Shown: positions 46,526 through 63,128 of the stretch, piece by piece
Position numbering within the stretch: position 1 is the first letter of the stretch
How the letters are laid out: every line of letters starts with the position of its first letter
Source of the DNA: Streptomyces mirabilis
GTDB taxonomy: Bacteria > Actinomycetota > Actinomycetes > Streptomycetales > Streptomycetaceae
Direction: 5' to 3'
NCBI RefSeq assembly: GCF_018310535.1
Contig: NZ_CP074102.1
Span: 3,100,001-3,164,000, forward strand
DNA: 64,000 nt
Notes under the pieces: model-generated
The model's database searches: none
What the model saw: the letters and a program-made list of their open reading frames with translations, nothing else
What the model was told of the DNA's origin: nothing
Translations under genes and position numbers: made by a program

Positions 46526-47713
46526 CTAGAGGATCACGTGGGGCAGGAAGCGGGCGTACTCGTCCGTGATCAGCCCGGACGACTCGCGAATGCCCAGACC
46601 GGCGGACTCCCCCTCCACCACCCAGGCGCCCAGGACCACGTGGTTGCCGTCGAACGCGGGCAGCGGGGCCAGCTCCTGGTAGCAACAGGGCTCGTCCTCG
46701 CGTACGACGGGGGCGGCGCCCGGTGCGTGCACCGTCACCCCCGCGCCCTCGCGGCCGAGGAGCGGCTTGGCGACGTACCCCTGGGTGGTGGCCAGCTCCC
46801 GGGGTCCGTCGAGGTGGGCGGGGAGGAGGTTGGGGTGACCCGGGTACAGCTCCCAGAGGACGGCGAGGAGGGCCTTGTTGCTGAGGAGCATCTTCCAGGC
46901 GGGCTCGATCCACAGGGTCGTGCCCGTACCGCCGCCGTTGTCGAGGGTGTCCAGGACGTGGTCGGCGAAGCGGTCGGTGGTGAGCCACTCCCAGGGGTAG
47001 AGCTTGAAGCAGCTGCGGATGAAACGGAGCTGGTTGTCGACGAAGCGGCCGGAGAGGGGGTCCCAGCCGATCTCCTCCACCGAGATCCAGTCGGTGTCGA
47101 GGCCCGCCTGCTGCGCAGTCTCCTTCAGGTACGCGACGGTCATGAGGTCCTCGCCGAGTTCGTCGGCGGCGGAGTGCGCGAAGTAGAGGGGGCTGCCCGG
47201 CGGCAGGAGGGCGGACTGCTTCTTCCAGGCGGCGACGAGGCGTTCGTGGAGGGAGTTCCACTGGTCGGCGCCGGGGAAACGGTCCTCCATCCAGAACCAC
47301 TGGGGGCTCGCCGCCTCGACGAGGGAGGTCGGGGTGTCGGCGTTGTACTCCAGCATCTTGGCGGGGCCCGTGCCGTCGTATCGCAGGTCGAACCGGCCGT
47401 AGACGGAGGGGAGTTCGTCGCGGCGCCGCCAGGCCTCGGCGACCGCCCGCACCACGCGCGGGTCGGTGATGCCGAGGTCGGCGAAACGATTCTCCGTGAC
47501 GATGTGCTCGGCCGCCTCCAGGCACATGCGGTGCAGTTCCTCGACGACCTCCTCCAGCGCCTCCACCTCCGGGAGCGAGAAGGCGTAGTACGCGCTCTCG
47601 TCCCAGTAGGGGCGCAGGGAGTCGTCCGGGTAGCGGGTCAGCGGGTAGACGAGGCCCTGGTGCTCGACGGTCTGCTGCCAGCCGGGGCGGGGCTCGATGG
47701 TGCGGCGTTCCAT
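46526..47713 (-). CDS. Glutathionylspermidine-synthase-like ATP-grasp protein (YgiC type)
   Basis: 395 aa. ATP-grasp C-N ligase fold related to the synthetase half of Gsp synthase: LRYDGTGPAKMLEYNADTPT, TLWIEPAWKMLLSNKALLAV and ATTQGYVAKPLLGREGAGV. It has no amidase domain, as in E. coli YgiC/YjfC. Streptomycetes lack glutathione, so the true substrate must differ. The YgiB-like lipoprotein gene lies just upstream on the same strand, the same pairing as E. coli ygiB-ygiC. Confidence 0.88.
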   Translation of the reverse strand: MERRTIEPRPGWQQTVEHQGLVYPLTRYPDDSLRPYWDESAYYAFSLPEVEALEEVVEELHRMCLEAAEHIVTENRFADLGITDPRVVRAVAEAWRRRDELPSVYGRFDLRYDGTGPAKMLEYNADTPTSLVEAASPQWFWMEDRFPGADQWNSLHERLVAAWKKQSALLPPGSPLYFAHSAADELGEDLMTVAYLKETAQQAGLDTDWISVEEIGWDPLSGRFVDNQLRFIRSCFKLYPWEWLTTDRFADHVLDTLDNGGGTGTTLWIEPAWKMLLSNKALLAVLWELYPGHPNLLPAHLDGPRELATTQGYVAKPLLGREGAGVTVHAPGAAPVVREDEPCCYQELAPLPAFDGNHVVLGAWVVEGESAGLGIRESSGLITDEYARFLPHVIL

Positions 47714-47772
47714 GGCGTACGGGTCCGATCGGTGCGGGGCGCGTCCTACAGGTGTGGTGACGTAGGGGACGC

Positions 47773-48123
47773 TCAGCCGCCGGAGCTGCCCTTGCCGCTG
47801 CCGAAGCCGCCGCGGTCGACGGAGTGGTGGCTGCCGCCGCCGGTGCTGCTGCCGGATCCCTTGCTCGCCTTGGTGAAGGAGCCGCCGTCGACCCAGCCGC
47901 TCTTCTTCTTGCCGCCGTAGTACCAGCCGCTGCTGACCGAGGTCTTGGTGCTCTTGCAGTTCTTGTCGGCGACGACCTTGTAGCCCCTGGCCGAGGTGTA
48001 GCTGTCGCGGTCGACGCAGCGCTTGTCCGGCTCCGAGGAGCAGGCGGTGAGAGCCGCCGCGAGGAGTCCCATGCCGCCGAGCACGACCGTGCCCGAGCGC
48101 AGTTGCCGTCGTGTGTCCGCCAT
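47773..48123 (-). CDS. YgiB-like (DUF1190-type) lipoprotein
   Basis: 116 aa. Lipobox LTAC gives a lipid-modified Cys28. A small Cys/Lys-rich core (CVDRDSYTSARGYKVVADKN) is followed by Trp/Tyr/Gly/Ser low-complexity sequence ending SVDRGGFGSGKGSSGG. The RGGFG near the C-terminus and the gene pairing with a YgiC-like ATP-grasp enzyme both match E. coli YgiB; overall similarity is otherwise weak. GGGGGAT precedes the ATG. Confidence 0.7.
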   Translation of the reverse strand: MADTRRQLRSGTVVLGGMGLLAAALTACSSEPDKRCVDRDSYTSARGYKVVADKNCKSTKTSVSSGWYYGGKKKSGWVDGGSFTKASKGSGSSTGGGSHHSVDRGGFGSGKGSSGG

Positions 48124-48254
48124 CTTCGATCCCCCGTTTGTCGTGACAGTGCGTTCTGTTGAGCGTCCTGGTGGGTGCCCTGCTGGGCGCAAGCGATCAG
48201 ATTAGGGAACGGCTCCGACAGGTGGGCGGCAGCCCCCTCATTTTCGGCGTCCCC

Positions 48255-50208: not shown

Positions 50209-50988
50209 TCAGGCCATCGCCTCCACGATCCCGTCCCACAACCGGACCCTCGCCTCAAGGGCCAGCGTCGCCGTTTCGACCGCCTCCTGCCAGCGCATGT
50301 CGTCCGTGCCGCAGAGGTCGGCCACCATCTGCATGGCCATGGGGGTGTGTTCCTCGCCGTCGACCTCGATATGTCGGGCCAGGTAGTCGCAGAAGAGCGG
50401 GAAGCGGTCGGTGCCCTCCTTCTTGATGACCTGGTCGAACATGTCGGGGATGAGGTCCTCCCGGGAGAAGGCGAACGCGGCCGCCCGGCAGTGCAGGGGC
50501 CGGTCCGAGATGATCTCGAAGGTGGTGCGGACGAACTCGGCGGCAGGGCCCGGGACTTGGGCGACCCGGAGTGCCGAGGGCACGTCGTGGCCCTCGGTGA
50601 TCAGAGCGAGGAAGGTGTCGATCCTGGTCGCGTCGGCGTCCGCCTCGGTCATGCCCGCGCGGTACAGCTCGAAGTGACTGGTGAAGCCGCCGTTCAGTTC
50701 GTCGCTCTCCTCGACCAGGACGATGTCGTTGATCAGGCGCCGGCCGACCTCCGTGCCGCGCGGCACCCAGGGGACGTCGACGCAGGTCAGTTCCCGTTGG
50801 AGGGACTTCAGGAGCGACATGAAGTCCCATACCGCGAACACATGGTGCGCCATGAACGTCGCCATGTCCTCCCGGCTGCCTATCCGCTGGTAAATCGGGT
50901 GGGTGGTGACCTCTTTCCGAGCGGATTCGATCACGGAACGCGCCCGCTCGATTCCCTCGTGGTTCATATTCCAGTCGTACCTGGACAT
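50209..50988 (-). CDS. DUF3050-family protein (haem-oxygenase-like fold, putative metal oxygenase)
   Basis: 259 aa. Conserved potential metal ligands: His48/His49 ([12 protein letters not shown]), Glu93/Glu94 ([10 protein letters not shown]), His105 (SHFELYR), His166, and Asp201...His206...His214 ([15 protein letters not shown]). The spacing resembles haem-oxygenase-like diiron oxidases. That superfamily includes N-oxygenases, oxidative decarboxylases and the chlamydial p-aminobenzoate-forming protein CADD. AGAAGGAG gives a strong ribosome-binding site. Divergent from the p-aminobenzoate operon across 233 AT-richer bases, which suggests a joint role. The reaction is unknown. Confidence 0.82.
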
Positions 50989-51221
50989 GGGATCTCCTTC
51001 TTGGTGACAGATGGGGGCCACAGCGGCGATGAATGGCGATCGTGCAGCTTTATCGACGGACCCCGCAAGCACTTTCGGAAATCACGGGAGAGTTACCAGG
51101 AGTATCGATCGACAGAAGATGTCAAGATAACCGAAAGATAAACAAAAGGTCACGATCCGGACACTCGAAAAACTTCGTTGAATATTTGAACGCGCTGTAT
51201 GCGCTTTCCGTACTCGGTAGC
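50989..51221. promoter_or_regulatory. AT-richer divergent promoter region of the PABA-type cluster
   Basis: Base composition drops sharply here (for example AAGATAACCGAAAGATAAAC near 51124). It separates the DUF3050 gene from the ABM-pabAB operon and should contain both promoters. One plus-strand frame is open through it, but it contains a TTA and reads as non-coding. Confidence 0.5.
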
Positions 51222-51809
51222 GTGACCAGGAATCCCGTAACCGTCACCGTGGCGTATCACGTGATCCCGGGCCGCGAGACCGACTTCCACTCCTGGGGGT
51301 GGGCCGTGCTGCGGGCGAGCTCGCGCGAACCGGGCTTCCTGGGGGGTGGTGTACTTGCCGACGGAGAGGCGGAGTGGCATGTGGTCTACCGCTTCGACAG
51401 CGAGGGGTCGGCCCTGGCCTGGGAAGACTCGATCATCCGGGCGCAGTGGGCCACCCGGGCGGACCCGTTCGCCCGGGAGACGGGCCGGCGGAGCGTGCGG
51501 GGCTCCAAGAGCTGGTTCGACGCCCAGACCGGCGCGCCGAAACCGCCGGCCGCACCGCTCCCGCCCGCGAAATGGAAGCTTTGGTTCGTGAATATGAGTG
51601 CGGTCTTCCCACCGGTTCTCTTATTCAATCTGCTCGTGATTCCGTATCTCGGCGGTCTCAACCCACTGATCCGTACGCTGCTGCTGTGTCTGTGTGTGAC
51701 GGCCCTCGTCACCTGGATTCTCATGCCGCGACTTCAGCGATTCTTCAAGAAATGGCTGTACCCACCGCTCCAGGCGCTCCGCGGACGTCATAAAAGACGG
51801 ACCGCGTAG
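51222..51809 (+). CDS. ABM-domain protein with C-terminal membrane helices; contains a TTA codon
   Basis: 195 aa. Residues 1-100 form an antibiotic-biosynthesis-monooxygenase (dimeric alpha/beta-barrel) domain (TVAYHVIPGRETDFHSWGW, EPGFLGGGVL). Two membrane helices (about 125-165) and a very basic tail follow. Such proteins may be cofactor-less oxygenases or act in haem/quinone handling. Leu134 is encoded by TTA (51621-51623), so translation should depend on the bldA tRNA. It is the first gene of the cluster operon; pabAB follows after 30 bases. The GTG start has no strong ribosome-binding site. Confidence 0.78.
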   Translation: MTRNPVTVTVAYHVIPGRETDFHSWGWAVLRASSREPGFLGGGVLADGEAEWHVVYRFDSEGSALAWEDSIIRAQWATRADPFARETGRRSVRGSKSWFDAQTGAPKPPAAPLPPAKWKLWFVNMSAVFPPVLLFNLLVIPYLGGLNPLIRTLLLCLCVTALVTWILMPRLQRFFKKWLYPPLQALRGRHKRRTA

Positions 51810-51839
51810 GCCCGAGAACGATCAAAGGGAGGTGGGCGG

Positions 51840-54038
51840 GTGAAGACCCTGCTCATCGACAATTACGACTCGTACACGTACAACCTGTTCCAGCTGATCG
51901 CCGAGGTCAACGGCGAGGAGCCGGTGGTGATCCTCAACGACGCCGCCCCCGAAGGAGCAGGCGGAAGAATTCCGGATCTCTCGGAATTCGACAATGTGGT
52001 GGTGTCGCCCGGACCGGGGCACCCGGCCGAATCCCGTGACTTCGGGATCAGCGCCAGAGTGCTCGCGGAGTCCACGATCCCGGTGCTCGGTGTCTGCCTG
52101 GGCCACCAGGGCATCGCCCTCGGGGAGCGGGGCCGGGTGCTGCCCGCCCCGGAGCCCCGGCACGGGCATCTGTCGAGAATCCGGCACGCCGAGCGGGACC
52201 TGTTCCAGGGGCTGCCGCAGCACTTCACCGCGGTCCGCTACCACTCGCTGTCCGTGCGCGAGCCGCTGCCCGAGACGCTGGAAGCCACGGCCTGGTCCGA
52301 GGACGGCGTCCTGATGGGACTGCGGCACCGCACCCGGCCGCTGTGGGGCGTGCAGTTCCACCCGGAGTCCGTCCTCACCGAGTACGGCCACCGGATGCTC
52401 GTGAACTTCCGCAACCTCACCGCGCAACGCGCCCGCAAGACTCGTACGAAGAACACCGCGGTCACCCCGTCCGCGGCGGCCATCCCCGCCCCGGCCACGC
52501 CCTCCCGCCCCACGCGGACCGTCCGCCCCGCCCACCGGCTGCACACCCGCCGCATCGCCACCGCCATCGACGCGGAGGCCGCCTTCACGCGGATGTACGC
52601 CACCTCCCCGCGGGCGTTCTGGCTGGACAGCGCGCGGGTCGAGGAGGGGCGGTCACGGTTCTCGTTCTTCGGTGACGGCTCCGGGCCGCTGTCGGAGTTC
52701 GTCCGGTACGACGTCACGACCGGCCGCTGCGAGATCGAGCGGGCCGGACGACCGCCGCGCAAGGTCCGGGCGAGCGTCTTCGACTACCTCAAGCGGCAGT
52801 TGGCGAACCGGCGCGTGGACGCCACCGGGCTGCCCTTCGACTTCACCGGCGGATACGTCGGCTACTTCGGGTACGAGACCAAGGCCGACTGCGGCTCCCC
52901 GAACCGCCACCAGGCCGAAACCCCCGACGCCTGCTGGCTGTTCGCCGACCGGCTGATCGCGGTGGACCACCAGGAGGGCTTCACCTACGCCGTCTGTGTG
53001 GCCGAGGACACCCCCCAGGCCACCCGGGAGGCCACCGACTGGCTCGACGGCGCACTCGCCCAGCTCACCTTCGTCGGCGCCGACCCGCAGCCGTTACCGC
53101 CCGCACCCGTGTCTGCCGAGCCCGACCTCGGCGCCGCCGAGCCGTGGCTCGTCCGCGACCGGGCCACCTACCTCGCGGACATCGAGGCCTGCGCGCGTGA
53201 ACTGCGCGCGGGCACCAGCTACGAGATCTGTCTGACCAACGCCGCCCGGCTGCCCGCGCCGCCCGACGCGTACGACTTCTACCGAGTGCTGCGCCGCGTC
53301 AACCCGGCGCCGTACGCGGCCTTCCTGCGGTTCGGCGACCTCGACGTGGCGAGCGCCTCCCCCGAGCGCTTCCTGCGGATCACCCGCGGCGGCGTCGCCG
53401 AGGCCCGGCCCATCAAGGGCACCGCGCCCCGGGGCGACACCCCGGAGGAGGACGCGCGCCTGCGGGACGCGCTCGCCGCCGACGCCAAGATCCGCGCCGA
53501 GAACCTGATGATCGTCGACCTGCTCCGCAACGACCTGGGCCGGGTCTGCCGGACCGGGACGGTACGCGTCTCCCGGCTCATGGCCACCGAGACCTACGCC
53601 ACCGTGCACCAGCTCGTCTCCACCGTCGAGGGCCGGCTGCGCCCGGACACGGAAGCGGTGGACTGCGTGCGCGCCTGCTTCCCCGGCGGCTCGATGACCG
53701 GCGCGCCGAAGCTGCGCACCATGGAGATCATCGAGACGCTGGAGACCGAGGCGCGCGGGGTGTACTCCGGGGCCCTCGGCTACCTGGGATGCAGCGGCGG
53801 CGCCGACCTCAGCATCGTCATCCGTACCGCCGTACTCGCGGACGGGCTGATGCACCTGGGCGCGGGCGGCGCGATCGTCCTCGACTCCGATCCGGTCGCG
53901 GAGTACGACGAGATGCTGCTGAAGACGGCGGCACAGATGCGGGCCCTGCGGGAGCACCAGGAAGCCACCCCGGCAGGGGTGAGCGCCCGTCGGACGGACA
54001 CCCCCCGCCGCGCCGCCGTAGAGGAGCCCGCCCGGTGA
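51840..54038 (+). CDS. pabAB: Fused aminodeoxychorismate synthase (PabA-PabB)
   Basis: 732 aa. Residues 1-195 are a class I glutamine amidotransferase (SPGPGHP, nucleophile Cys86 in GVCLGHQ, GVQFHPES). After a Pro/Arg linker (200-245), a chorismate-binding PabB domain runs to about 710. Lys526 in RPIKGTAPRG marks aminodeoxychorismate synthase; anthranilate synthases have PIAGT. It converts chorismate and glutamine to 4-amino-4-deoxychorismate. The fused form is typical of antibiotic-linked pab genes in actinomycetes. AAAGGGAGG precedes the GTG. The stop overlaps the next start (GTGA). Confidence 0.93.
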   Translation: MKTLLIDNYDSYTYNLFQLIAEVNGEEPVVILNDAAPEGAGGRIPDLSEFDNVVVSPGPGHPAESRDFGISARVLAESTIPVLGVCLGHQGIALGERGRVLPAPEPRHGHLSRIRHAERDLFQGLPQHFTAVRYHSLSVREPLPETLEATAWSEDGVLMGLRHRTRPLWGVQFHPESVLTEYGHRMLVNFRNLTAQRARKTRTKNTAVTPSAAAIPAPATPSRPTRTVRPAHRLHTRRIATAIDAEAAFTRMYATSPRAFWLDSARVEEGRSRFSFFGDGSGPLSEFVRYDVTTGRCEIERAGRPPRKVRASVFDYLKRQLANRRVDATGLPFDFTGGYVGYFGYETKADCGSPNRHQAETPDACWLFADRLIAVDHQEGFTYAVCVAEDTPQATREATDWLDGALAQLTFVGADPQPLPPAPVSAEPDLGAAEPWLVRDRATYLADIEACARELRAGTSYEICLTNAARLPAPPDAYDFYRVLRRVNPAPYAAFLRFGDLDVASASPERFLRITRGGVAEARPIKGTAPRGDTPEEDARLRDALAADAKIRAENLMIVDLLRNDLGRVCRTGTVRVSRLMATETYATVHQLVSTVEGRLRPDTEAVDCVRACFPGGSMTGAPKLRTMEIIETLETEARGVYSGALGYLGCSGGADLSIVIRTAVLADGLMHLGAGGAIVLDSDPVAEYDEMLLKTAAQMRALREHQEATPAGVSARRTDTPRRAAVEEPAR

Positions 54039-55606
54039 CGATCCCCACGTCCACGCCGACTCCGCAGTCGCCGACCGGCACCCACGCCGACGCCGACGCC
54101 CCCGGCAATCTCGCCACCCATCTCGCCGCGCTCGCCGAGCGGCGCGGCTGGGGTGAGCGGGTCGCCTTCCACCAGGGTCACCGGGCCTGGACGCACGGCG
54201 AGGTGCACGAGCTCGCGGGCCGTGCGGCCGGTGTGCTCGCCGCGCACGGCGTGGGTGCGGGCGACCGGGTGCTGCTCGCGCTGCCCGACGGGATCGCCTG
54301 GGTGGCGGCCTTCCTCGCCACCGCCCGGATGGGAGCCGTCGCGGTCCTGGTCAACCCCGAACTGCCCCCGGCCGAGCACGCGTTCATGGCCAAGGACGCC
54401 AAGGCCGTGCTCTGCGTGACCGGACCGGGCCTGGAGGACCGCTTCACCGACCGCGTGCGTCTCGGCGCCGACCAGCTGATGGCGCTCACCGCCGACGCCG
54501 AGCCGGCCGCCGCGCACCCGGTCGACGCGCACACCCCGCTCTACGTCCAGTACACCTCCGGCACCACGGGCCGGCCCAAGGGTGTCGTGCACTGTCACGG
54601 CGACCCGAAGACGTACCACGACCTCATCGGCCGGCGGCTGCTGCGGATCACCCCGGACGACGTCACCCTGTCGGTGTCGAAGCTGTACTTCGCGTACGGC
54701 TTCGGCAACGCCTTCGTCTTCCCGCTCTTCTCCGGCTCCTCCGCCGTCCTGGTGGACCGGCGTCCGAACCCGGCCGCCGTGGACGAGCTCGTCGCCCGGC
54801 ACCGGGTCACCCTGCTCTACTCCGTGCCCTCCGCGTACGCCGCCCTCGTCGCCGACCGGGGCAGCGGTCACGCGGCCTGCTTCGTCTCCGTACGCGCCGC
54901 CGTGTCGGCCGGGGAGGGCCTGCCCGAGGGGCTCGGGAAGCAGGTCACCGAACTGCTGGGCGCGCCGGTCCTGGAGCAGATCGGCTCCACCGAGGCCGGT
55001 CACGCGTTCTGCGCCAACAGCTTCGAGCACAACCACCCGGGCACGGTCGGCCGCCCGGTCCCCGGTTTCGAGGTGGAGCTGCGCGACGAAGCCGGTATGC
55101 CGGTGGAGGACGGCGCGCAGGGCGAACTCTGGGTGCGCGGGCCGACGCTGACGCCCGGCTATCTGAACAGGCCCGAGGAGTCGGAACGCACCCTGGTCGG
55201 CGGCTGGCTGGCCACCCACGACCGGGCGCGCCGGGAGCCGGACGGCAGCTACCGGCACCTGGGACGCACCGACGACCTGGAGATGGTCGGCGGGATCACC
55301 ATCTCCCCGCTGGAGGTGGAGGCCGTGCTGCGGGCCCATCCGGCGGTGAAGGAGGTCGCGGTCGCGGCCATGACCGACTGGCGCGGCTTCAGCCGGCTGC
55401 GGGCCTTCGTCGTCCCCGTCTCACCCCTGCCGCCCGGCCTCTCCGGACTGTCCGGGCCGTCCGGTCTCGAGACCGAACTCGTGGGCCTGGCGCGCGAGCA
55501 CCTCGCCGCGTTCAAGGTCCCCAGAGCCATCAGTTTCGTCCCGTCCCTGCCCCGCACCTCGACCGGAAAGCTCCGCCGCCACCTCGTCCGCCAGGGCGCC
55601 TGGTGA
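54035..55606 (+). CDS. Benzoate-CoA-ligase-like acyl-CoA synthetase
   Basis: 523 aa, ANL superfamily. Core motifs: YTSGTTGRPKGVVH (phosphate loop), SKLYFAYGFGNAFVFPLFSG (characteristic of benzoate/aminobenzoate-CoA ligases), IGSTEAGHAFCANSF, and the C-terminal catalytic Lys in RTSTGKLRRH. It should activate an aromatic acid with ATP and CoA; in this operon p-aminobenzoate or a derivative is the obvious candidate. The GTG overlaps the pabAB stop, and its own stop may overlap a GTG of the next gene. Confidence 0.9.
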   Translation: MTIPTSTPTPQSPTGTHADADAPGNLATHLAALAERRGWGERVAFHQGHRAWTHGEVHELAGRAAGVLAAHGVGAGDRVLLALPDGIAWVAAFLATARMGAVAVLVNPELPPAEHAFMAKDAKAVLCVTGPGLEDRFTDRVRLGADQLMALTADAEPAAAHPVDAHTPLYVQYTSGTTGRPKGVVHCHGDPKTYHDLIGRRLLRITPDDVTLSVSKLYFAYGFGNAFVFPLFSGSSAVLVDRRPNPAAVDELVARHRVTLLYSVPSAYAALVADRGSGHAACFVSVRAAVSAGEGLPEGLGKQVTELLGAPVLEQIGSTEAGHAFCANSFEHNHPGTVGRPVPGFEVELRDEAGMPVEDGAQGELWVRGPTLTPGYLNRPEESERTLVGGWLATHDRARREPDGSYRHLGRTDDLEMVGGITISPLEVEAVLRAHPAVKEVAVAAMTDWRGFSRLRAFVVPVSPLPPGLSGLSGPSGLETELVGLAREHLAAFKVPRAISFVPSLPRTSTGKLRRHLVRQGAW

Positions 55607-55668
55607 CCACCGCGGCACCACGACCACAGACCACAGCCACAGACCACAGGACAGAAGGGAACGGGCAC

Positions 55669-57240
55669 ATGCGACAACAGCAGCCCCTGCTCGCCGACCG
55701 CGGTTTCTACCTGGGCCCGATGTTCCGGCACGCGGCGGACCGCCACGGAGCCGTCTTCGTCACCCTGGACCGGCCGCTCGACGTCAATCCCGGCCTCGGG
55801 GTCGACCTCAGCTATCCGGTGCTGGCCGAAGTGGTCGAGGAGCTCTCCGGACGGCTGTGGGAGGCCGGGGTCCGGCCCTCGGAAGAGGTGGTCGTCCACA
55901 AGAGGGACAACGTCGACATCGTTCTGCTGACCTGCGCCGTCTCCCGTATCGGGGCCGTTCCCGTCCTCCTGTCCCCCGCGCTCGCCGGTCCGGTGGTGGG
56001 CCGGCTCCTCGAACGGCTCCACCAACCCTGGCTGATCACCGACAGAGCCAAGCTGGAGGGCCCGCTGGAGGAAGTCGACCTCTCCAGCCTCGTACGCCGG
56101 ACGCTCTCCGTGGACGACGCGCCCGGGGCCGAACCCCTGGAGAAGTACGCCAGGGCAAAAACCCCCTCTCCCGTCCGGCTGCATCCGCGCCAGCCCGCCC
56201 TGATCACCCACAGCTCGGGCACCACCGGCCTGCCCAAGCTCGCCGTGCACTGCGCGAACACCATGTGGAACCGGCTCGTCCCGCAGAAGGCGATGGGCTG
56301 GCCCACCCGCGGCGAGACCGCCGCGCTGCACATGTCGTTCGTGCACTCGCGCTTCTACCATCTGCTCGGCGTCCTGCTGCACTTCGGCAGCCCGCTCGTA
56401 CTCATCACCGACCCGGACCCGGCCACGGTGGGACCGCTGCTGACCCGGCACCGCCCCGGCATCGTCGAGACCCACCCCAACACGTTCGTGCTGTGGGAGG
56501 AGCTGGCCGACGCGCCCGGAGCGCCGCTGTCCCGGGTCCGCTCGTACGGCTCCACGTTCGACGCGATCCATCCGCGCACCGTACGGCGGCTGCTGGACGC
56601 CTCGAAGCGGCGCATGCCCTGGCTGATGCAGCTGTACGGGCAGAGCGAGACGGGTCCGGTGGCCTTCCAGTGGTTCACCCGGCGCAGCGCCGCCCGCGCG
56701 GACGGGCGCCGGGTCGGGATCGGGATCCCCGGCTTCACCCGGGTCCGGGTCACTGACGACTCCGGCGGGCGGGCCAGGCCCGGCACGCCCGGCCGCATCG
56801 AGGCCCGCACCCGGGGGCGGATCCTCACCTACCTCGGCGCCCGGGAGCAGTACCTACGCCAGCTCGACGGCGGCGGCTGGTGGCAGATGGGCGACATGGG
56901 GTACCAGGGACGGCTGGGCGGGCTGTATCTGATCGACCGTGAGATCGATCGGATCGACTCGGTGCACAGCAATCTGGAGGTCGAGGACGCCCTGATGGAC
57001 CGGCTGGAGGAACTGCGTGAGGTGGTCATCGTGCCCGGCGCGGACCGGGAACCGGTGCCGGTGGTGTGCGTACGGGGCGAACGGCCGCTGGACCCGGCGC
57101 GCTGGCGGGAGGCCACGGCCGATCTGCCGCCCCTGGCCGAGCCCCGGCAGTGGCGCTTCGAGGAGCTGCCGATGACCGCGACCTGGAAGGTGAAGCGGGT
57201 GGAGATCACCCGCATGCTGGCCGAGGGCGCGCGCACGTGA
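55669..57240 (+). CDS. Second ANL-superfamily adenylate-forming enzyme
   Basis: 523 aa. Phosphate loop HSSGTTGLPKLAVHC, YGQSETGPVAFQW, and the hinge DREIDRIDSVHSNLEVEDAL; the C-terminal Lys lies in ATWKVKRVEITR. It is distinct from the benzoate-type ligase upstream and nearer to fatty-acyl or NRPS-like adenylating enzymes. No carrier protein is encoded nearby, so the acceptor (CoA, amine or a carrier elsewhere) is unknown. ATG 55669 has GAAGGGAACGGGC upstream; a GTG at 55603 overlapping the previous stop is an alternative. Confidence 0.87.
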   Translation: MRQQQPLLADRGFYLGPMFRHAADRHGAVFVTLDRPLDVNPGLGVDLSYPVLAEVVEELSGRLWEAGVRPSEEVVVHKRDNVDIVLLTCAVSRIGAVPVLLSPALAGPVVGRLLERLHQPWLITDRAKLEGPLEEVDLSSLVRRTLSVDDAPGAEPLEKYARAKTPSPVRLHPRQPALITHSSGTTGLPKLAVHCANTMWNRLVPQKAMGWPTRGETAALHMSFVHSRFYHLLGVLLHFGSPLVLITDPDPATVGPLLTRHRPGIVETHPNTFVLWEELADAPGAPLSRVRSYGSTFDAIHPRTVRRLLDASKRRMPWLMQLYGQSETGPVAFQWFTRRSAARADGRRVGIGIPGFTRVRVTDDSGGRARPGTPGRIEARTRGRILTYLGAREQYLRQLDGGGWWQMGDMGYQGRLGGLYLIDREIDRIDSVHSNLEVEDALMDRLEELREVVIVPGADREPVPVVCVRGERPLDPARWREATADLPPLAEPRQWRFEELPMTATWKVKRVEITRMLAEGART

Positions 57241-58436
57241 GCGGCGCCTCCGGCCATCCGGTCCTCGTGGTGGGTGCCGGGCCCGTGGGGCTGTCGGCGG
57301 CGCTCGCGCTGCGCGCGCACGGGCTGCCGGTCGTGCTCCTGGAGGCGGACCCCCAGGAGCGCGAACGCCCGGGCAGCCGCGCCCTGTTCGTACACCGGGA
57401 GACCCTGCGGCTGCTCGACGGGATGCGCCCGGGGCTGGCCGCCGAGATCACGGCGTACGGGCGTACCTGGCACACCAGACGGACCCTGTACCGGGGCCGT
57501 GAGGTGTACGCCCGCACCTTCCCGCCGCCGTCCACGCCCGGCCTCCCGCCCTTCACCAGCCTGCGTCAGGTGGACACCGAGCGCTTCCTGCGCACCGCGT
57601 GCGAGGCGGCCGGAGTGGAGTTCGCGTGGGGGGCGCGGGTGACGGGGGTGCGCGTCGCACCGACGGAGGTCGTGCTCAGCGGCGCGGACGGCCGCGTCTG
57701 GACGGGCACGTACGCCGTCGCCGCGGACGGGGCACGCTCGGCGGTCCGGGGCGAGCTGGGCATCCCGATGGAGGGGACGCGCGCGGACGGCTTCCACGTC
57801 GTCGTGGACGTCGCCGACCTGCCGGACGCCGAGCTGCCGTTGGAGCGGGTCTTCCACTACGAGCATCCGGGGGTGGGCGGCCGCAGTGTGATGCAGGTGC
57901 CGTTCACCGGGGGCTTCCAGGTCGACCTGCAGTGCCGTGACGACGACACGCAGGAGGCGTACGGGACCGAGGAGGCCGTACGGGAATGGCTGCCCGCGGT
58001 GGTGGACGACGGGTACGCCGAGCGCGTTCTGTGGGTGTCGACGTACCGCTTCCTGCGCAAGGTCGCCGCCTCGTTCAGCGACCCGCAGCGGCGGGTGCTG
58101 CTCGTCGGCGAGGCCGCCCACCTGTTCCCGCCGTTCGGCGCGCGCGGGATGAACAGCGGGATCGCGGACGCGGCGGCGGCCGCGCGGGCGATCGCCGACG
58201 GGACGGCCGCCGCGGTCGCCGGGTTCGCCGAGGTCCGGCGGGCGGCGGCCCTGTTCAACAGCGCGGCCGCCGGCAGCGCGCTGGACCATCTGCGGCCGCA
58301 CCGCCGGATCGTCCGGGTCAAGCAGCGGGCGGCGGCGGCGCTCGCGCCCGTGCTGCCGTGGTGCGGTTCCTGGCTGGAGCACGCGCCGTACGGGCCACGG
58401 AACGGTTCGCCCGCTGTCGCGGGCCGCAAGTACTGA
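57237..58436 (+). CDS. FAD-dependent aromatic monooxygenase
   Basis: 399 aa, class A flavoprotein hydroxylase. The dinucleotide fold is VVGAGPVGLSAALALRAHG; the DG motif is VAADGARSAVRGELGI. The usual GD motif appears as VLLVGEAAHLFPPFGARGMN, with Glu in place of Asp at the ribityl contact. Relatives hydroxylate phenols or aminobenzoates with NAD(P)H and O2. It is coupled to the upstream ligase (GTGA). A likely substrate is a p-aminobenzoate derivative or its CoA ester. Confidence 0.9.
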   Translation: MSGASGHPVLVVGAGPVGLSAALALRAHGLPVVLLEADPQERERPGSRALFVHRETLRLLDGMRPGLAAEITAYGRTWHTRRTLYRGREVYARTFPPPSTPGLPPFTSLRQVDTERFLRTACEAAGVEFAWGARVTGVRVAPTEVVLSGADGRVWTGTYAVAADGARSAVRGELGIPMEGTRADGFHVVVDVADLPDAELPLERVFHYEHPGVGGRSVMQVPFTGGFQVDLQCRDDDTQEAYGTEEAVREWLPAVVDDGYAERVLWVSTYRFLRKVAASFSDPQRRVLLVGEAAHLFPPFGARGMNSGIADAAAAARAIADGTAAAVAGFAEVRRAAALFNSAAAGSALDHLRPHRRIVRVKQRAAAALAPVLPWCGSWLEHAPYGPRNGSPAVAGRKY

Positions 58437-58454
58437 GACCGAGAGGGGTACGCA

Positions 58455-59261
58455 GTGACACAACCGGCCATCGCGGAGGAGCTGTTGGCGTGGTCACCCG
58501 GCCGTGGGCTGACCTCCGGACCGGCCCCCGGCACGTTGCCGGGCGGGCGGCTGCTCGTCGCGGACTCGTGGCTGCTGCGCGACGGCCGGATGCGCGGCTT
58601 CGACCGGCACCGGGAACGCTTCCTGCGGGCCTGCGGCGACTGCGGCGGCCCACCGCTGGACCGGCTCGTCGCGTTCTGGCGGGACATGACCGCCGCGCTG
58701 CCGCGCACCGGGGAGTGGTTCCCCCGGGTCGAACTCGCCGCGGGCTCCATGGAGTTGCGGCTGCTGTTGCGGCACGCGCCGCCGCTCGGCACGGGCGTGC
58801 GGGTCTGGGCGGCGGGGCAGAGCGATCCACGGACCGTCCCCCGACGCAAGGGGCCCGACCTGGACACCCTGGCCCGGGTGAGGCGGCGGGCCTCCGGGGA
58901 GGGCGCGGAGGAGGCGGTGCTGATCGCGTCCTCCGGTGTGGTGCTGGAGGCGGCCACGGCCAGCGTGCTGTGGTGGGAGGACGACACCCTGTGTTCGCCC
59001 TCGCCGCAGCTGCCCGTCCTGGCCGGAGTGACGGCCGGCCTCATCCAGGAGCGGGCCCACCGGACCGGGATCCGTGTCGCCCACCGCGAACGGACCGTGG
59101 CCGAGCTCGACGGCCGTGAGGTGTGGCTCGTGAACGCGCTGCACGGGATCCGGCCGGTGACCGCCTGGACGGCGCGGCCGATGAGCCCGGCGCCGGCCGT
59201 GCGCGCCCCGGAATGGCGGCAGTGGCTGCACGACGTCATGGAACCGCTGCCGGTCGACTGA
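58455..59261 (+). CDS. pabC: Class IV aminotransferase, aminodeoxychorismate lyase type
   Basis: 268 aa. The PLP lysine is Lys132 in RRKGPDLDTLARVRR, and VLEAATASVLWWEDDTL and GVTAGLIQERA match ADC lyase. With PabAB it would release p-aminobenzoate and pyruvate. It is the last gene of the cluster operon, 18 bases after the monooxygenase, with GAGAGGGG upstream. A branched-chain/D-amino-acid transaminase role is possible for the fold but unlikely beside pabAB. Confidence 0.85.
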   Translation: MTQPAIAEELLAWSPGRGLTSGPAPGTLPGGRLLVADSWLLRDGRMRGFDRHRERFLRACGDCGGPPLDRLVAFWRDMTAALPRTGEWFPRVELAAGSMELRLLLRHAPPLGTGVRVWAAGQSDPRTVPRRKGPDLDTLARVRRRASGEGAEEAVLIASSGVVLEAATASVLWWEDDTLCSPSPQLPVLAGVTAGLIQERAHRTGIRVAHRERTVAELDGREVWLVNALHGIRPVTAWTARPMSPAPAVRAPEWRQWLHDVMEPLPVD

Positions 59262-59374: not shown

Positions 59375-59866
59375 TCAGCTTTTCTTCTGGGCGGGCTGAT
59401 AGGCGCCCGGCACCATACGGGTCGCGATCGCGATCCGGTTGTACGCGTTGATGACGGTGGCCGCCCAGATCAGCGCCGCGATCTGGGCCTCGTCGAAGAC
59501 CTCCGCCGCCGCGGCGTAGACCGCGTCCGGCACGTGTCCGTCGTGGACCAGTGTCACCGCCTCGGTCAACGCCAGTGCGGCACGCTCCCGTTCGGTGAAG
59601 AACGGGGTCTCCCGCCAGGCGTTCAGGGCGTAGATCCGCTGCTCGGTCTCACCCCCGGCGCGGGCGTCCTTGGTGTGCATGTCGAGGCAGAACGCGCAGC
59701 CGTTGAGCTGCGAGGCGCGAATCCTGATCAGCTCCAGGAGTTCCGGTTCGACCTTGGCGTCCTGGGCCGCGGAAACGGCGGCGCCGTGCAGGGCACCCAT
59801 GGCGCCGGACGCCTCGGGGGTAATCGTCTTCAGGGCCACACGGGACAGGGCTTCACTATTGCTCAT
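59375..59866 (-). CDS. AhpD-like carboxymuconolactone-decarboxylase family protein (copy 1)
   Basis: 163 aa. The redox motif QLNGCAFCLDMHTKD has Cys57, Cys60 and His64 in the E/N-C-x-x-C-x3-H layout of AhpD-like peroxidases. The rest (RERAALALTEAVTLVHDGHV, AATVINAYNRIAIATRMVPG) is typical. Such proteins reduce peroxides with help from thiol partners. Its start overlaps the end of the MocR gene by 11 bases, so it is co-translated with the regulator. Two paralogues are divergently transcribed beyond MocR. Confidence 0.9.
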   Translation of the reverse strand: MSNSEALSRVALKTITPEASGAMGALHGAAVSAAQDAKVEPELLELIRIRASQLNGCAFCLDMHTKDARAGGETEQRIYALNAWRETPFFTERERAALALTEAVTLVHDGHVPDAVYAAAAEVFDEAQIAALIWAATVINAYNRIAIATRMVPGAYQPAQKKS

Positions 59867-61394
59867 GAGGCGACTCTATTCCATGAAAAGGGCCGCCGAC
59901 TCCCTCGTTGTGGAAAGTACCGTTGAAGGTGCTGTCGAAAGTGCTGTTGAACGTTCCGTTGAAAGTGCTGTCGAAAGGCAGTGCCGCGCACAATGCGTCC
60001 AGCGCCCCCGACCACCCGTGGTCCGGCGGTGTCCCGTACCCCACCACCAGCGCGTCGGTCCGCTCGGCGGGCGACTCCGGGTGGCGGTAGCGGTCGAGCC
60101 CGTGCACCGCGAGCCCCTGCCAGGCCGCCGCCCGCAGCGTCTCCTGCTCGGTGCCGGGCGGCAGGCGCAGCACCACGTGCAGGCCCGCCGCGATGCCCGT
60201 GGCCCGGACTCCGGGGGCCTGTTCGGCGAGCCGCGCCACCAGGGCGTCCCGGCGGCGCCGGTAACGCAGCCGGGACGCCCGGACGTGGCGGTCGTAGGCG
60301 CCCGACGTGATGAACTCCGCCAGGGTGAGCTGGTCCAGCACCCCGCACGACCAGTCCACCCCGCCCTTCGCCGCGACCACCTCCGGGGCGAGCGACGGCG
60401 GCAGCACCAGCCAGCCCAGCCGCAGACCGGGGGCCAGGGACTTGCTGGCCGTGCCCACATGGACCACGTGATCGGGGTCGAGGCCCTGGAGTGCGCCGAC
60501 CGGCTGGCGGTCGTAGCGGAACTCCCCGTCGTAGTCGTCCTCCAGGATCAGACCGCCGCCACGCCGCGCCCAGTCCACCACCTGCGCCCGCCGGTCGGGG
60601 TGCAGCGGTACGCCCATCGGGAACTGGTGGGCGGGGGTCATCAGCACCGCCCGTACGCCTCCCAGCGCGTCCCCGCCCTGTGGACCGGCCGCCAACTCCT
60701 CCGTACGCGTGCCGAGTTCGTCGAATCCGAGCGGCACCGTCCGCAGTCCGGCCTGCTCCAGCAGCCGCCAGTGGACGTCGAGCCCGTACGACTCCACGGC
60801 CAGCGAGGTCAGTCCCCGCCCACGCAGCACCTGGCCGAGCAGCATCAGGCCGTGCACGAAGCCTGAGCAGATGACGATGTGCTCCGGGTCCGTGCGAACG
60901 CCCCGGGCCCTGGCCAGATATCCGGCCAGGGCGGTGCGCAGTTCCACCCGGCCGCGCGGGTCGCCGTAGTCGAGGGCCTCGTGCGGGGCGACGGCCAGGG
61001 CGCGGCGTGAGGCCTTCAGCCAGGCCGCGCGGGGGAAGGAGGACAGGTCGGGGGAGCCGGGGACCAGGTCGTACGCCGGGCGGGCGTGGGCCGGGCGGCC
61101 GGGCGCGGAGGTGGTGGAGGGGGCCTGCACCGGGCGGCGTGCGACGCTCGTGCCCGAGCCCTGGCGGGCGGTGAGCCAGCCCTCCGCCACCAGGTCCGCG
61201 TACGCCTCCGCGACCGTGTTGCGGGCGATACCCAGGTCGGCGGCGAGGGAGCGGGAGGAGGGCAGCCGGGTGCCGGGGGCGAGGCGGCCGCTGCGGACCG
61301 CCTCGCGGAGGGCTTCCGTCAGACCTCTGCGGACACCGGGTCCGGTCGGCTCAACGTGCAGGTCGACCCCGAAAGTGGCCCATGATTTCGCCAT
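59856..61394 (-). CDS. MocR-type GntR regulator with aminotransferase domain and tetrapeptide tail
   Basis: 512 aa. N-terminal GntR winged helix (about 15-85: LAPGTRLPSSRSLAADLGIA RNTVAEAYADL). The rest is a class I aminotransferase-like domain with PLP Lys318 in VGTASKSLAPGLRLG. MocR proteins sense PLP-linked ligands. After residue 470 the tail is (F-D/N-S/G-T) repeated five times, encoded by a 12-bp tandem repeat, which is unusual. Divergent from two AhpD-like genes across 47 bases with two TGGnCCAT sites; it likely controls them and itself. The PABA operon is another possible target. Confidence 0.92.
   Translation of the reverse strand: MAKSWATFGVDLHVEPTGPGVRRGLTEALREAVRSGRLAPGTRLPSSRSLAADLGIARNTVAEAYADLVAEGWLTARQGSGTSVARRPVQAPSTTSAPGRPAHARPAYDLVPGSPDLSSFPRAAWLKASRRALAVAPHEALDYGDPRGRVELRTALAGYLARARGVRTDPEHIVICSGFVHGLMLLGQVLRGRGLTSLAVESYGLDVHWRLLEQAGLRTVPLGFDELGTRTEELAAGPQGGDALGGVRAVLMTPAHQFPMGVPLHPDRRAQVVDWARRGGGLILEDDYDGEFRYDRQPVGALQGLDPDHVVHVGTASKSLAPGLRLGWLVLPPSLAPEVVAAKGGVDWSCGVLDQLTLAEFITSGAYDRHVRASRLRYRRRRDALVARLAEQAPGVRATGIAAGLHVVLRLPPGTEQETLRAAAWQGLAVHGLDRYRHPESPAERTDALVVGYGTPPDHGWSGALDALCAALPFDSTFNGTFNSTFDSTFNGTFHNEGVGGPFHGIESPHEQ
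59917..59976 (-). repeat. Five 12-bp tandem repeats encoding the MocR tail
   Basis: Five in-frame 12-base units (GTGCTGTCGAAA and variants) occupy 59917-59976; a partial sixth precedes them. On the coding strand they give FDST/FNGT/FNST units. The 12-bp length keeps the frame if copies are gained or lost. Confidence 0.9.
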
Positions 61395-61407
61395 GTAAAT
61401 GGACCAT
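61375..61407. promoter_or_regulatory. Two TGGnCCAT sites between MocR and AhpD-like genes
   Basis: TGGCCCAT (61376-61383) and TGGACCAT (61400-61407) are repeated 24 bases apart and flank the MocR start codon. Pairs of short direct repeats at about two helical turns are typical MocR/PdxR sites. Binding is inferred. Confidence 0.5.
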
Positions 61408-61441
61408 ACTCCTGGGCTGCTTCGCTCGTAGGGTCGAGAAC

Positions 61442-61954
61442 ATGACGACGAACGACGCCACCACCGCCACCACCACCGAGTACGCCCCCGAGCACAGCCC
61501 CCGACTGCACTGGGCCAAGCACGCCCCCGAGGTCTACAAGGCCATGCTCCGGCTGGAGACGGCCGCGCAGCAGGGGCTGGAGCCGAAGCTGCGCGAGCTG
61601 GTGAAGATCCGTGCCTCGCAGCTCAACCACTGCGCGTTCTGTCTCGACATGCACACCAAGGACGCGCTGGCCGCCGGGGAGAGCGTGCAGCGGATCGTCC
61701 AGCTCAGCGCGTGGGAGGAGTCGAAGCACTTCTACACGGAGAAGGAACTCGCGGCGATCGAGCTGACCGAGGCCGTGACCGTCCTGACCGACGGGTTCGT
61801 ACCGGACGAGGTGTACGAGAAGGCGGCACAGCACTTCGAGGAGGCCGAGCTGGCGCAGCTGATCGCCGCGATCACGGTGATCAACGCGTGGAACCGGTTC
61901 GGCGTGAGCACGCGGATGGTCCCGGGCCACTACGAGGCGGGCCAGCACCAGTGA
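61442..61954 (+). CDS. AhpD-like carboxymuconolactone-decarboxylase family protein (copy 2)
   Basis: 170 aa. Cys64, Cys67 and His71 in QLNHCAFCLDMHTKD match copy 1, and VTVINAWNRFGVSTRMVPG closes the domain. The ATG at 61442 is preferred over an earlier one (61382) that would overlap the MocR gene and add improbable residues. Its stop overlaps the GTG of copy 3. Predicted thiol-dependent peroxidase; partner unknown. Confidence 0.9.
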   Translation: MTTNDATTATTTEYAPEHSPRLHWAKHAPEVYKAMLRLETAAQQGLEPKLRELVKIRASQLNHCAFCLDMHTKDALAAGESVQRIVQLSAWEESKHFYTEKELAAIELTEAVTVLTDGFVPDEVYEKAAQHFEEAELAQLIAAITVINAWNRFGVSTRMVPGHYEAGQHQ

Positions 61955-62418
61955 CGAAGCGCGCCGAACCCGCCAGGGAGCGCCCGAAGGTGCTCGACCC
62001 GGCGGTCGGGCGGGCCCTGTCCGCGTTGAGCGCCGCCGCGAAGAAGGGGCTCGGCGAGCCCGCGCTCGCCGAACTCGTCATGATCCGCGCCTCCCAGCTC
62101 AACCACTGCGCGTTCTGCCTCGACATGCACCTCGAACTGGCCCGCAAGAACGGCGAGTCCGAGGACCGCATCCAGCTCCTCAACGCCTGGGAGGAAGCGG
62201 AGGATCTCTACAGCGAGCGCGAGCGGGCGGCGCTGACGCTGACGGAGGCGGTGACCGTCCTGACGGAGGGCTTCGTGCCGGACGAGGTGTACGCGCGGGC
62301 GGCCGAGCACTTCGACGACGTCCGGCTCGCGCACCTCATCGCCCTGATCACCGCGATCAACGGCTGGAACCGGGTGATGGTGAGCCGTCGGATCCCGCCG
62401 GGGGGATACGCGCCGTGA
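61951..62418 (+). CDS. AhpD-like carboxymuconolactone-decarboxylase family protein (copy 3)
   Basis: 155 aa. Cys53, Cys56 and His60 in QLNHCAFCLDMHLEL. It is very similar to copy 2 (ERAALTLTEAVTVLTEGFVPDEVYARAAEHF), so the pair is a recent tandem duplication. Both ends overlap neighbours by GTGA: with copy 2 upstream and with the PEP-mutase-family gene downstream, making one coupled three-gene operon. Confidence 0.9.
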   Translation: MTKRAEPARERPKVLDPAVGRALSALSAAAKKGLGEPALAELVMIRASQLNHCAFCLDMHLELARKNGESEDRIQLLNAWEEAEDLYSERERAALTLTEAVTVLTEGFVPDEVYARAAEHFDDVRLAHLIALITAINGWNRVMVSRRIPPGGYAP

Positions 62419-63128
62419 GCGGGGTCGAGGTCTTACGGGCACTGCATCGCCATCGCCTCCCCGACGATCCCCTCGTCCTGCCCGGCCCCTGGGACGCCGT
62501 CTCCGCGCGGGTGTGCGTGGACGCCGGGTTCCCCGCGCTCGCCACGCCCAGCGCGGGGATCGCCGCCTCGCTCGGGTACGAGGACGGGGCCACGCCCGCC
62601 GCCGAGATGTTCGCGGCGGTCGCGCGGATCGTGCGGGCCGTGGAGGTGCCGGTGTCGGCGGACGTCGAGGACGGGTACGGGCTCGCGCCGAAGGAGCTGG
62701 TGGCACGCCTGCTGGAGGCGGGGGCCGTGGGGTGCAACCTTGAGGACTCCCACGGCGGAGCCCTCAAGGACCCGGCCCGGCACGCCGACTGGCTGGCCGA
62801 GGTGCGCTCCGCCGCGGGCGACCGGCTCTTCGTCAACGCCCGCGTCGACACCTTCGCCCGCGGGGACGGTGATCCGGAGCGGGCGATCGAGCGGGCCGCG
62901 CTGTACGTCGCGGCGGGCGCCGACTGCGTGTATCCGATCGGCGCCCCCGTCGGCGTACTGCCGCTGCTGCGGGCGGGGATCCAGGGCCCGATCAACGTGT
63001 TCGCACGGCTCGACGGCCCCCGGGCCGCCGAACTCGGCGAGCTGGGGGCCACCCGGATCACCTTCGGGCCGGGCCTCCAGCGCCGCGCGACCGGGGCACT
63101 GCGGGAGATCGCCGCGCACCTGAGATAG
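62415..63128 (+). CDS. Isocitrate lyase / PEP mutase family protein; contains a TTA codon
   Basis: 237 aa, TIM-barrel of the ICL/PEPM superfamily. SADVEDGYGLAPKELV carries Asp83/Glu85/Asp86 of the Mg site; the KKCGH loop of true isocitrate lyase is absent. LFVNARVDTFARG and YPIGAPVGVLPLLRAGI support the family. Members cleave or rearrange C-C or C-P bonds of 2-oxo acids, and the substrate here is open. Leu7 is a TTA codon (62433-62435), making it a likely bldA-dependent gene although its upstream partners lack TTA. The GTG overlaps copy 3's stop. Confidence 0.88.
   Translation: MSGVEVLRALHRHRLPDDPLVLPGPWDAVSARVCVDAGFPALATPSAGIAASLGYEDGATPAAEMFAAVARIVRAVEVPVSADVEDGYGLAPKELVARLLEAGAVGCNLEDSHGGALKDPARHADWLAEVRSAAGDRLFVNARVDTFARGDGDPERAIERAALYVAAGADCVYPIGAPVGVLPLLRAGIQGPINVFARLDGPRAAELGELGATRITFGPGLQRRATGALREIAAHLR

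Follow-up and report, generated by a model that had tools for sequence, protein, structure and literature searches.

A conserved p-aminobenzoate gene cluster of Streptomyces mirabilis with a predicted arylamine diazotase

Diazo compounds are uncommon among natural products; they are reactive and readily lost during isolation. A review counts CreM, AvaA6 and Aha11 among the enzymes confirmed to form diazo groups (PMC11705231), and their pathways are compared here with a short gene cluster between positions 50209 and 59866 of a 64,000-nucleotide stretch of Streptomyces mirabilis DNA (hereafter the window; NZ_CP074102.1, positions 3100001-3164000 of a 9.6 Mb genome, G000:C1 below). On balance, the window cluster probably makes a metabolite derived from p-aminobenzoate (PABA) by way of a diazo stage, either an aryl diazonium or a quinone diazide.

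In cremeomycin (cre) biosynthesis an adenylate-forming (ANL) enzyme diazotises an aminohydroxybenzoate with nitrous acid from CreE and CreD (PMC11705231), as is envisaged here, and the methyltransferase CreN acts before diazotisation (PMC11429834), whereas the starter is 3-amino-4-hydroxybenzoate (3,4-AHBA) from CreH and CreI (PMC11429834) rather than PABA, and creE and creD lie inside the cre cluster. In penzonemycin (pzm) biosynthesis, as in the window cluster, the aminobenzoate, there 3-hydroxyanthranilate (3-HAA), derives from chorismate, and a CreM-type AMP-binding protein occurs along with an acyl-CoA ligase distinct from it (PMC9323291, Table 3). In the tasikamide (aha) pathway a hydroxyanthranilate ester is the substrate of the ATP-dependent arylamine diazotase Aha11, the hydrazone being formed later (PMC11705231), and the avenalumic and p-coumaric acid clusters (ava, cma) also employ an ANL diazotase, about half of them having, as here, no local genes of the aspartate-nitrosuccinate (ANS) pathway (PMC10777205). 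These three systems differ from the window cluster in that pzm has a PhzE/PhzD/dehydrogenase-type route to 3-hydroxyanthranilate, in-cluster CreD and CreE and an SRPBCC protein; aha has a 5-hydroxyanthranilate alkyl ester, the ANS genes Aha1 and Aha2 and coupling to a nonribosomal peptide synthetase (NRPS) product; and ava and cma have a 3,4-AHBA starter, a type II polyketide synthase (PKS) and AvaA6-model proteins that form a separate ANL clade. A flavin hydroxylase is also said to act before diazotisation in the cremeomycin pathway, in which we know of no DUF3050 protein and no counterpart of the benzoate-CoA-ligase-like protein ANL1 described below. Aureothin-type pathways (AurF, a PABA synthase and a CoA ligase) reportedly make and activate PABA for a secondary metabolite as well, but are said to rely on AurF N-oxidation and a PKS, and to our knowledge hold no CreM-type ANL enzyme. 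A literature search, conducted mostly without subscription journals and on sources available in part, found no known product of the present gene set and no PABA-based diazo cluster, in agreement with a first-pass annotation of the window, which knew of no described pathway with this set.

Gene set and proposed pathway

The cluster is taken, from sequence comparison, to extend from the DUF3050 gene or the ABM gene to CMD1, and comprises the following genes (window coordinates).

50209..50988, minus strand: DUF3050 gene, predicted haem-oxygenase-like diiron oxidase family, 259 aa from ATG, accessory member (PF11251, 320 bits)
51237..51809, plus strand: ABM-like small protein, GTG start chosen but uncertain, hydrophobic C-terminus judged from the translation (PF03992, 22.0 bits)
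51840..54038, plus strand: PabAB, fused aminodeoxychorismate synthase with Chorismate_bind and GATase domains (TIGR00553; PIKGT at residue 524)
54035..55606, plus strand: ANL1, benzoate-CoA-ligase-like, 523 aa (TIGR02262, 374.0 bits against a cut-off of 375.25)
55603..57240, plus strand: ANL2, adenylate-forming enzyme, predicted ATP-dependent arylamine diazotase (PF00501; ANS-linked, CreM/Pzm18-type clade)
57237..58436, plus strand: FMO, group-A flavin monooxygenase, 399 aa, predicted ring hydroxylase (PF01494, 157.5 bits)
58455..59261, plus strand: PabC-like aminodeoxychorismate lyase, class IV aminotransferase (PF01063, E 1.2e-25)
59375..59866, minus strand: CMD1, carboxymuconolactone decarboxylase (CMD)/AhpD family, convergent end of the cluster (PF02627)

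The first seven of these had been named in the first-pass annotation and are found in the places and families given there, with the ABM match falling under the PF03992 cut-off of 23.1 and ANL1 just below that of TIGR02262; CMD1, which lies outside the interval then considered, had been missed even though it is present in all 59 loci compared below. The six plus-strand genes form an operon in the order ABM–PabAB–ANL1–ANL2–FMO–PabC (about 51237–59261), and its tight packing was correctly described: GTGA stop/start overlaps can be read directly at PabAB/ANL1, ANL1/ANL2 and ANL2/FMO, and by coordinates the remaining gaps are of 30 bases (ABM/PabAB) and 18 bases (FMO/PabC). The DUF3050 gene points away from the operon and lies 248 bases ahead of the start chosen for ABM, while CMD1 is convergent and begins 113 bases beyond PabC by coordinates. 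As also noted at that stage, PABA is central and PKS or NRPS genes are missing, none being seen among the translated open reading frames of at least 90 aa that overlap 46.0–64.0 kb (carrier proteins of under 90 aa would escape). Many gene names beyond the family searches are taken from translations or similarity, and gene calls in a number of the comparison loci, the Lentzea terrae and lone-CreE regions among them, are rough.

PabAB scores 343.4 bits on TIGR00553, over the cut-off of 328.4. The PIKGT signature reported earlier is present, and across the 80 loci readable at this position the lysine motif is PIKGT in 77 and PVKGT in 3. PIKGT is the sequence rule for enzymes of the PabB type as opposed to the TrpE type, and by sequence PabAB is PabB-type, not TrpE-type. 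PabC has its candidate pyridoxal phosphate-binding lysine, K132, present in 80 of 81 homologues; its best score on the curated NCBIfam equivalog models for PabC is 46.7 bits, below the cut-off of 253, and the assignment is made because PF01063 is matched and the gene lies in the PabAB operon. Conversion of chorismate to PABA by PabAB and PabC is thus well supported as a prediction. The best solved relative of ANL1 is the benzoate-CoA ligase 2v7b (E 1.8e-87), with anthranilate-CoA ligases lower in the list, which bears out its earlier description as benzoate-CoA-ligase-like. The SGTTG motif and A10 lysine of ANL1 are found in 87 of 87 homologues, and the protein likely activates a carboxylate, by family as the CoA thioester. 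FMO shows GAGPxG in all 59 rows covering that stretch, DG in 87 of 87 and a GEAAH-type motif in nearly all of the 87, and its family predicts a ring hydroxylase.

From the gene content, its conservation, the clade and motifs of ANL2 and the ANS genes found nearby in two lineages, a pathway can be proposed in which every reaction, the reaction order, the regiochemistry and the nitrite source are predictions. Chorismate would be converted to PABA by PabAB and PabC, the carboxylate would be activated by ANL1, most likely to the CoA thioester, and FMO would hydroxylate the ring to give an aminophenol of the type used by known diazotases, the amino group of which would then be diazotised by ANL2 with ATP and nitrous acid. 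FMO is placed before ANL2 because the diazotase substrates named in the literature are aminophenols, their ethers and derivatives (PMC11705231, PMC10777205). Tailoring or protection of the product may fall to CMD1 and ABM, joined in about half of the loci by the DUF3050 diiron oxidase; the simplest candidate that would fit as product is the quinone diazide of 4-amino-3-hydroxybenzoate. In Lentzea terrae and on the plasmid pSMg1-1, CreE and CreD encoded nearby (the ANS pathway) would supply the nitrous acid, whereas the genome of the window would need some other source. The PABA-derived, hydroxylated product foreseen in the first-pass annotation is retained in this scheme; its restriction of the chemistry to hydroxylation, N-oxidation or amide formation is not, as the ANL2 clade predicts N-N bond formation.

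Should this pathway prove correct, a common and very short operon would be an overlooked source of diazo compounds, and PABA would be a starter not met in diazo chemistry in the literature searched. The core of five to eight genes, with no megasynthase seen beside it, would allow each step to be tested with purified enzymes, and the system would bear on where diazotase clusters without ANS genes obtain nitrite and on the role of DUF3050 oxidases.

The clade of ANL2

The nearest solved relatives of ANL2 are distant (98 bits). In phylogenetic trees ANL2 and its homologues in loci L054-L073 (38-52% identity) fall in one clade, separate from ANL1 and from the AvaA6-model hits, to which ANL2 is 25-28% identical where aligned. 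Membership of the AvaA6 family is ruled out by this separation together with a score of 65.7 bits on the AvaA6 model NF058622 (cut-off 975), and the reading of ANL2 primarily as a second CoA ligase was rejected on clade and motifs.

The clade is associated with genes for nitrous acid formation. Nitrosuccinate lyase (CreD; NF052556) lies within 25 kb of 53 of the 107 members that are not PABA-type, among the matches listed, PABA-type being defined in the genus sample as at least 64% identity to ANL2. By genome, the same matches place a nitrosuccinate lyase in 52 of 66 genomes with non-PABA clade members against 29 of 229 others (p 4e-24); the CreD list includes three rows under the curated cut-off (G264, G050, G073). 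Twenty clusters from the non-PABA clade were fetched, and exactly one ANL gene was found in 16, two in 3 and none in 1, counts that apply to the fetched stretch and to a hidden Markov model built from 50 ANL proteins, with which genes similar to the query set are seen. The single ANL gene adjoins CreE/CreD in L171, L172, L174, L175, L176, L178 and L179. The commonest content of these clusters, an SRPBCC gene beside the ANL gene together with CreE, CreD, PhzE, PhzD and 3-deoxy-D-arabino-heptulosonate 7-phosphate (DAHP) synthase, resembles that of the published pzm cluster, with a gene order that differs in part, and identity between ANL2 and the clade members adjoining SRPBCC genes is 46-51%. 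Pzm18, which is encoded beside the SRPBCC protein Pzm19, is reported to be 48% identical to CreM (PMC9323291). The CreM/Pzm18 diazotases appear to belong to this clade, and because of clade, nitrous-acid gene context and Pzm18-like layouts ANL2 is predicted to be a CreM-type ATP-dependent arylamine diazotase.

The motifs SSGTTG and YGQSETG (E349) and the A10 lysine of ANL2 are invariant or nearly so in 89 homologues (not including the decayed copy at L052), and the PABA-type rows, which group as a single clade in one of the trees (98/98.6, 18 rows), keep FVHSR, STFDAIHP, YGQSETGP and the A10 lysine. These motifs are conserved to the same degree in the PABA-type and the ANS-linked members, which argues against a scheme in which ANL2, of diazotase descent, has reverted in most Streptomyces to carboxylate activation or to amide or ester formation. 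In that scheme ANL1 would make the CoA ester and ANL2 would acylate an amine or transfer the acyl group, giving a hydroxylated aminobenzoate conjugate without N-N chemistry. The presence of two ANL genes is consistent with it, as is the result of family searches of the eight cluster proteins, in which no transferase was recognised.

Nitrous acid and the case for and against a diazo stage

ANS genes accompany the PABA cluster in two separate lineages, Lentzea and the pSMg1-1 group. In Lentzea terrae (L167) a divergent CreE homologue (PF13454; 53% identical to ANS CreE) lies about 0.2 kb from the ABM homologue of the cluster. The gene after it encodes a CreD homologue, with 640 bits against a cut-off of 650 for nitrosuccinate lyase and a PcaB-model score that stays under the cut-off there. 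Plasmid pSMg1-1 of Streptomyces sp. Mg1 carries homologues of DAHP synthase, PabAB (PIKGT), ANL1, ANL2, FMO and PabC (46-61%), a CreE about 15 kb from ANL2 and a CreD that passes the cut-off with 802 bits. Seven plasmid records, forming one close group, have an ANL2 of 55.6% identity, and in all of them CreE lies about 17 kb off, measured between starts; pSMg1-1 is the one that was read gene by gene. On pSMg1-1 (L225; NZ_CP011665.1:396000-442000) the PABA/diazotase genes also adjoin a fatty acyl-AMP ligase, three desaturases, an acyl carrier protein, a rubredoxin and a cytochrome P450, a combination suggestive of polyyne or terminal-alkyne biosynthesis; the same region holds an oxidase distantly similar to BagK/FevA1 (114 bits, cut-off 800) and butyrolactone-type regulators.

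A number of observations weigh against a diazo stage in the window cluster itself. CreD is within 25 kb of none of the 41 PABA-type places of the genus sample, neither creE nor creD is near the window cluster, and among 112 PABA-type loci scanned, many with cut flanks, CreE/CreD were seen in one (L167). Nor are the PABA cluster and CreD associated by genome, among the matches listed (14/40 against 67/255, p 0.26; with the strict CreD cut-off 13/40 against 65/255, p 0.34). The CreD candidate of the window's own genome was rejected, since it scores 546 bits against 650 on NF052556 and exceeds the cut-off of the PcaB model TIGR02426, and is pcaB of a pca operon. Even outside the PABA type, 54 of the 107 clade members have no listed CreD within 25 kb (contig ends not considered). 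The placement of CreM in the clade rests on Pzm18 and likeness of layout rather than on the CreM sequence. When L222 (pSMg1-1) and L224 are added to the tree, L224, an ANS cluster, falls among the PABA rows, monophyly of which is not rejected (p-AU, approximately unbiased test, 0.48). The ANS clusters L054, L055 and L063 hold two clade members each, so that not every member need be a diazotase, and the literature search turned up, in the sources as available, no diazotase acting on PABA.

Two further features of these loci were recorded. The paired members of L054, L055 and L063 belong to two subclades, one member standing beside a WrbA-like gene and the other beside CreE and an SRPBCC-like gene; and in L224 (NZ_CP107949.1:62385-81950) the clade member is accompanied by annotated phenylacetyl-CoA epoxidase subunits, a hotdog thioesterase and an anthranilate-synthase-like gene with PISGT.

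The reversion of ANL2 to acyl chemistry draws its main support from the pattern of CreD, which is missing beside all 41 genus-sample places, is not enriched in those genomes and was not found in the window's own genome, where the best match is pcaB. It is countered by the ANS genes that adjoin the cluster in Lentzea and lie close by on pSMg1-1. In addition, 72 of 134 ava-type diazotase clusters are without avaE/avaD (PMC10777205), so that local absence of ANS genes is common; since about half of such clusters share this absence, the lack of local ANS genes is not fatal to a diazo stage, and reversion is regarded as unlikely, if deserving of serious attention. In avenalumic and p-coumaric acid biosynthesis an enzyme of this kind diazotises solely so that the amino group can be removed, as the same paper describes (PMC10777205); were that so here, the diazo compound would be transient and the end product a (hydroxy)benzoate. 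For the window cluster this seems quite improbable, as no reductase was recognised among the eight proteins (in searches that did not include AvaA7 as a query) and the synthesis of PABA merely for deamination would be costly.

For the CreM-type reading of ANL2, nitrite in Streptomyces mirabilis would have to come from outside the cluster. The Nar nitrate reductase was dropped as a source, since no narG over the cut-off was found in the window's own genome; other nitrite sources were not searched. In seven further genomes searched, CreD exceeded the cut-off in two, S. scabiei 87.22 and Lentzea, the Lentzea gene sitting elsewhere than the 640-bit gene of the cluster. The window's own genome does hold a lone CreE homologue (PF13454; L201:10044-11999, equal to G000:C1:6140044-6141999; 58% identical to ANS CreE); the surrounding 20 kb showed no CreD. 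Related CreE-type rows of at least 68% identity are present in 92 of 295 genomes of the genus, in 23 of 40 with the PABA cluster against 69 of 255 without (p 3e-4, kinship uncorrected, among the matches listed), and the greater frequency of such genes alongside PABA clusters is taken as a lead only. A broader proposal is tentative, and is held with less confidence than a diazo stage as such: PABA could be a third chorismate-derived aminobenzoate branch into bacterial diazo chemistry, beside 3,4-AHBA and 3-/5-hydroxyanthranilate, with a short cassette in about one-seventh of the same-genus species sampled leading to a PABA-derived quinone diazide or diazonium, nitrite arriving from outside the cluster (for example by way of the lone CreE-type aspartate N-oxygenase) and DUF3050 providing optional further N- or C-oxidation.

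Distribution, DUF3050 and neighbouring genes

Searches with ANL2 yielded 80 loci from named records, of which 59 with full flanks were counted and 21 were dropped for short flanks; the closest ANL2 relatives among these records are from Streptomyces. ABM, PabAB, ANL1, ANL2, FMO and CMD1 are each present in 59 of 59 full-flank loci and PabC in 58, in the same order throughout. Flanking chromosomal genes, by comparison, occur in 13 to 35 of the 59, CMD1 is retained even where the flanking MocR and CMD2 genes are absent, and in 20 loci picked mostly off the commonest context (rough gene calls) the neighbours vary while the limits of the set are constant. It is because the set keeps its limits while its neighbours change that the unit is drawn from DUF3050 or ABM to CMD1. 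The first-pass annotation had named lack of conservation in any other genome as grounds for rejecting its proposal, but the same order recurs in the 59 loci and in other genera. A class III aminotransferase upstream was rejected as a member, as it adjoins the cluster in L051, L052, L070 and L071 alone of 22 checked loci; it is found somewhere in the fetched span of 13 of the 59 full-flank loci and is treated as a neighbour.

In the genus sample, ANL2 matches at E <= 1e-40 occur in 103 of 295 genomes, and PABA-type ANL2 at 41 places in 40 of 295 (among the matches listed; one genome yields two fragments). Neighbourhoods were checked for 22 of these places (L034-L053, L070, L071) and for the window; identity alone does not separate the types, since L220 (48%) and L221 (46%) are PABA-type by gene content. 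One of the checked places, L052 (G069), holds a reduced PABA cluster with no FMO or ABM match and a degenerate ANL2 P-loop, and is apparently decaying. A match was present in 30 of 394 genomes of the class and in 28 of 341 of the family, and loci of other genera were chosen from these; of those fetched, L203-L205, L210-L213, L220 and L221 proved PABA-type, and L206, L207 and L214-L219 did not. The core of five (PabAB, PabC, ANL1, ANL2, FMO) recurs in other genera, including Lentzea terrae (L167), and CMD1 homologues are found in L167, L213, L220, L221 and L222. Some of these clusters hold further genes: a DAHP-synthase homologue in L167, L203, L211, L212, L220, L221 and pSMg1-1 (class II shown for L203), an O-methyltransferase in L204/L205 together with DUF3050, and an aldehyde-dehydrogenase-like gene in L220. 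The L213 cluster adjoins PhzE/PhzD genes, and that of L210 is cut by its contig end. The ABM homologue is less constant, being found at E<=1e-6 in L167 (38%) alone among 16 further loci compared.

This distribution bears on whether the cluster serves folate supply or aromatic catabolism. PabAB and PabC also serve folate, and CMD-family genes occur in aromatic catabolism. The cluster is probably not for folate supply, because PABA-type ANL2 is confined to the 40 of 295 genomes noted above and the window's own genome has four other chorismate-binding genes (the folate one not assigned); it moreover makes PABA instead of consuming an outside aromatic, and folate supply or catabolism is extremely unlikely. 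A second gene matching both Anth_synt_I_N and Chorismate_bind (778-aa frame) lies at G000:C1:48713-50026, near the contig start.

The DUF3050 gene, which had been accorded too much weight in the first-pass annotation, is present in 32 of the 59 full-flank loci and missing from 27 while the remaining cluster stays intact. It adjoins the cluster in four other-genus loci (L204, L205, L220, L221) at 57-60% identity, and no homologue was found in L203, L210-L213 and L167 (L210 being cut by its contig end), nor in pSMg1-1 (L222). It is an optional but recurrent companion and probably a real tailoring gene. Across 40 of 40 homologues the candidate metal-ligand (E/H/D) segments, including E177, vary little or not at all, a solved relative is 9vwb, and the protein is predicted to be a diiron oxidase; the predicted structure (mean pLDDT, predicted local distance difference test, 78.4, with residues 67-102 below 50) was not used as support. 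PvfB, a homologue of MgoB, reportedly has N-oxygenase activity. DUF3050 is described as a predicted diiron haem-oxygenase-like family (PMC4520260), and MgoB of the mgo operon is a member (PMC3298696), which, with the recurrence in four other-genus loci, would fit a pathway in which this oxidase makes an N-oxidised aminobenzoate (nitroso, nitro, hydroxylamine or azoxy). Given the intact clusters that lack the gene, both among the full-flank loci and in the other genera and pSMg1-1, such a pathway is considered very improbable.

From CMD1 onwards, window positions 59375-63128 hold a MocR-type regulator with three CMD/AhpD-like genes about it, and after these a phosphoenolpyruvate (PEP)-mutase-like gene (names partly from translations). 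This MocR/CMD/PEP-mutase syntenic block occurs in 23 to 33 of the 59 full-flank loci, CMD1 being the one gene of it found in all 59. On the other side, at 46526-48192, a glutathionylspermidine-synthase-like gene stands beside a small lipoprotein-like gene (both from translations), and the former is present in the fetched flank of 35 of the 59 loci.

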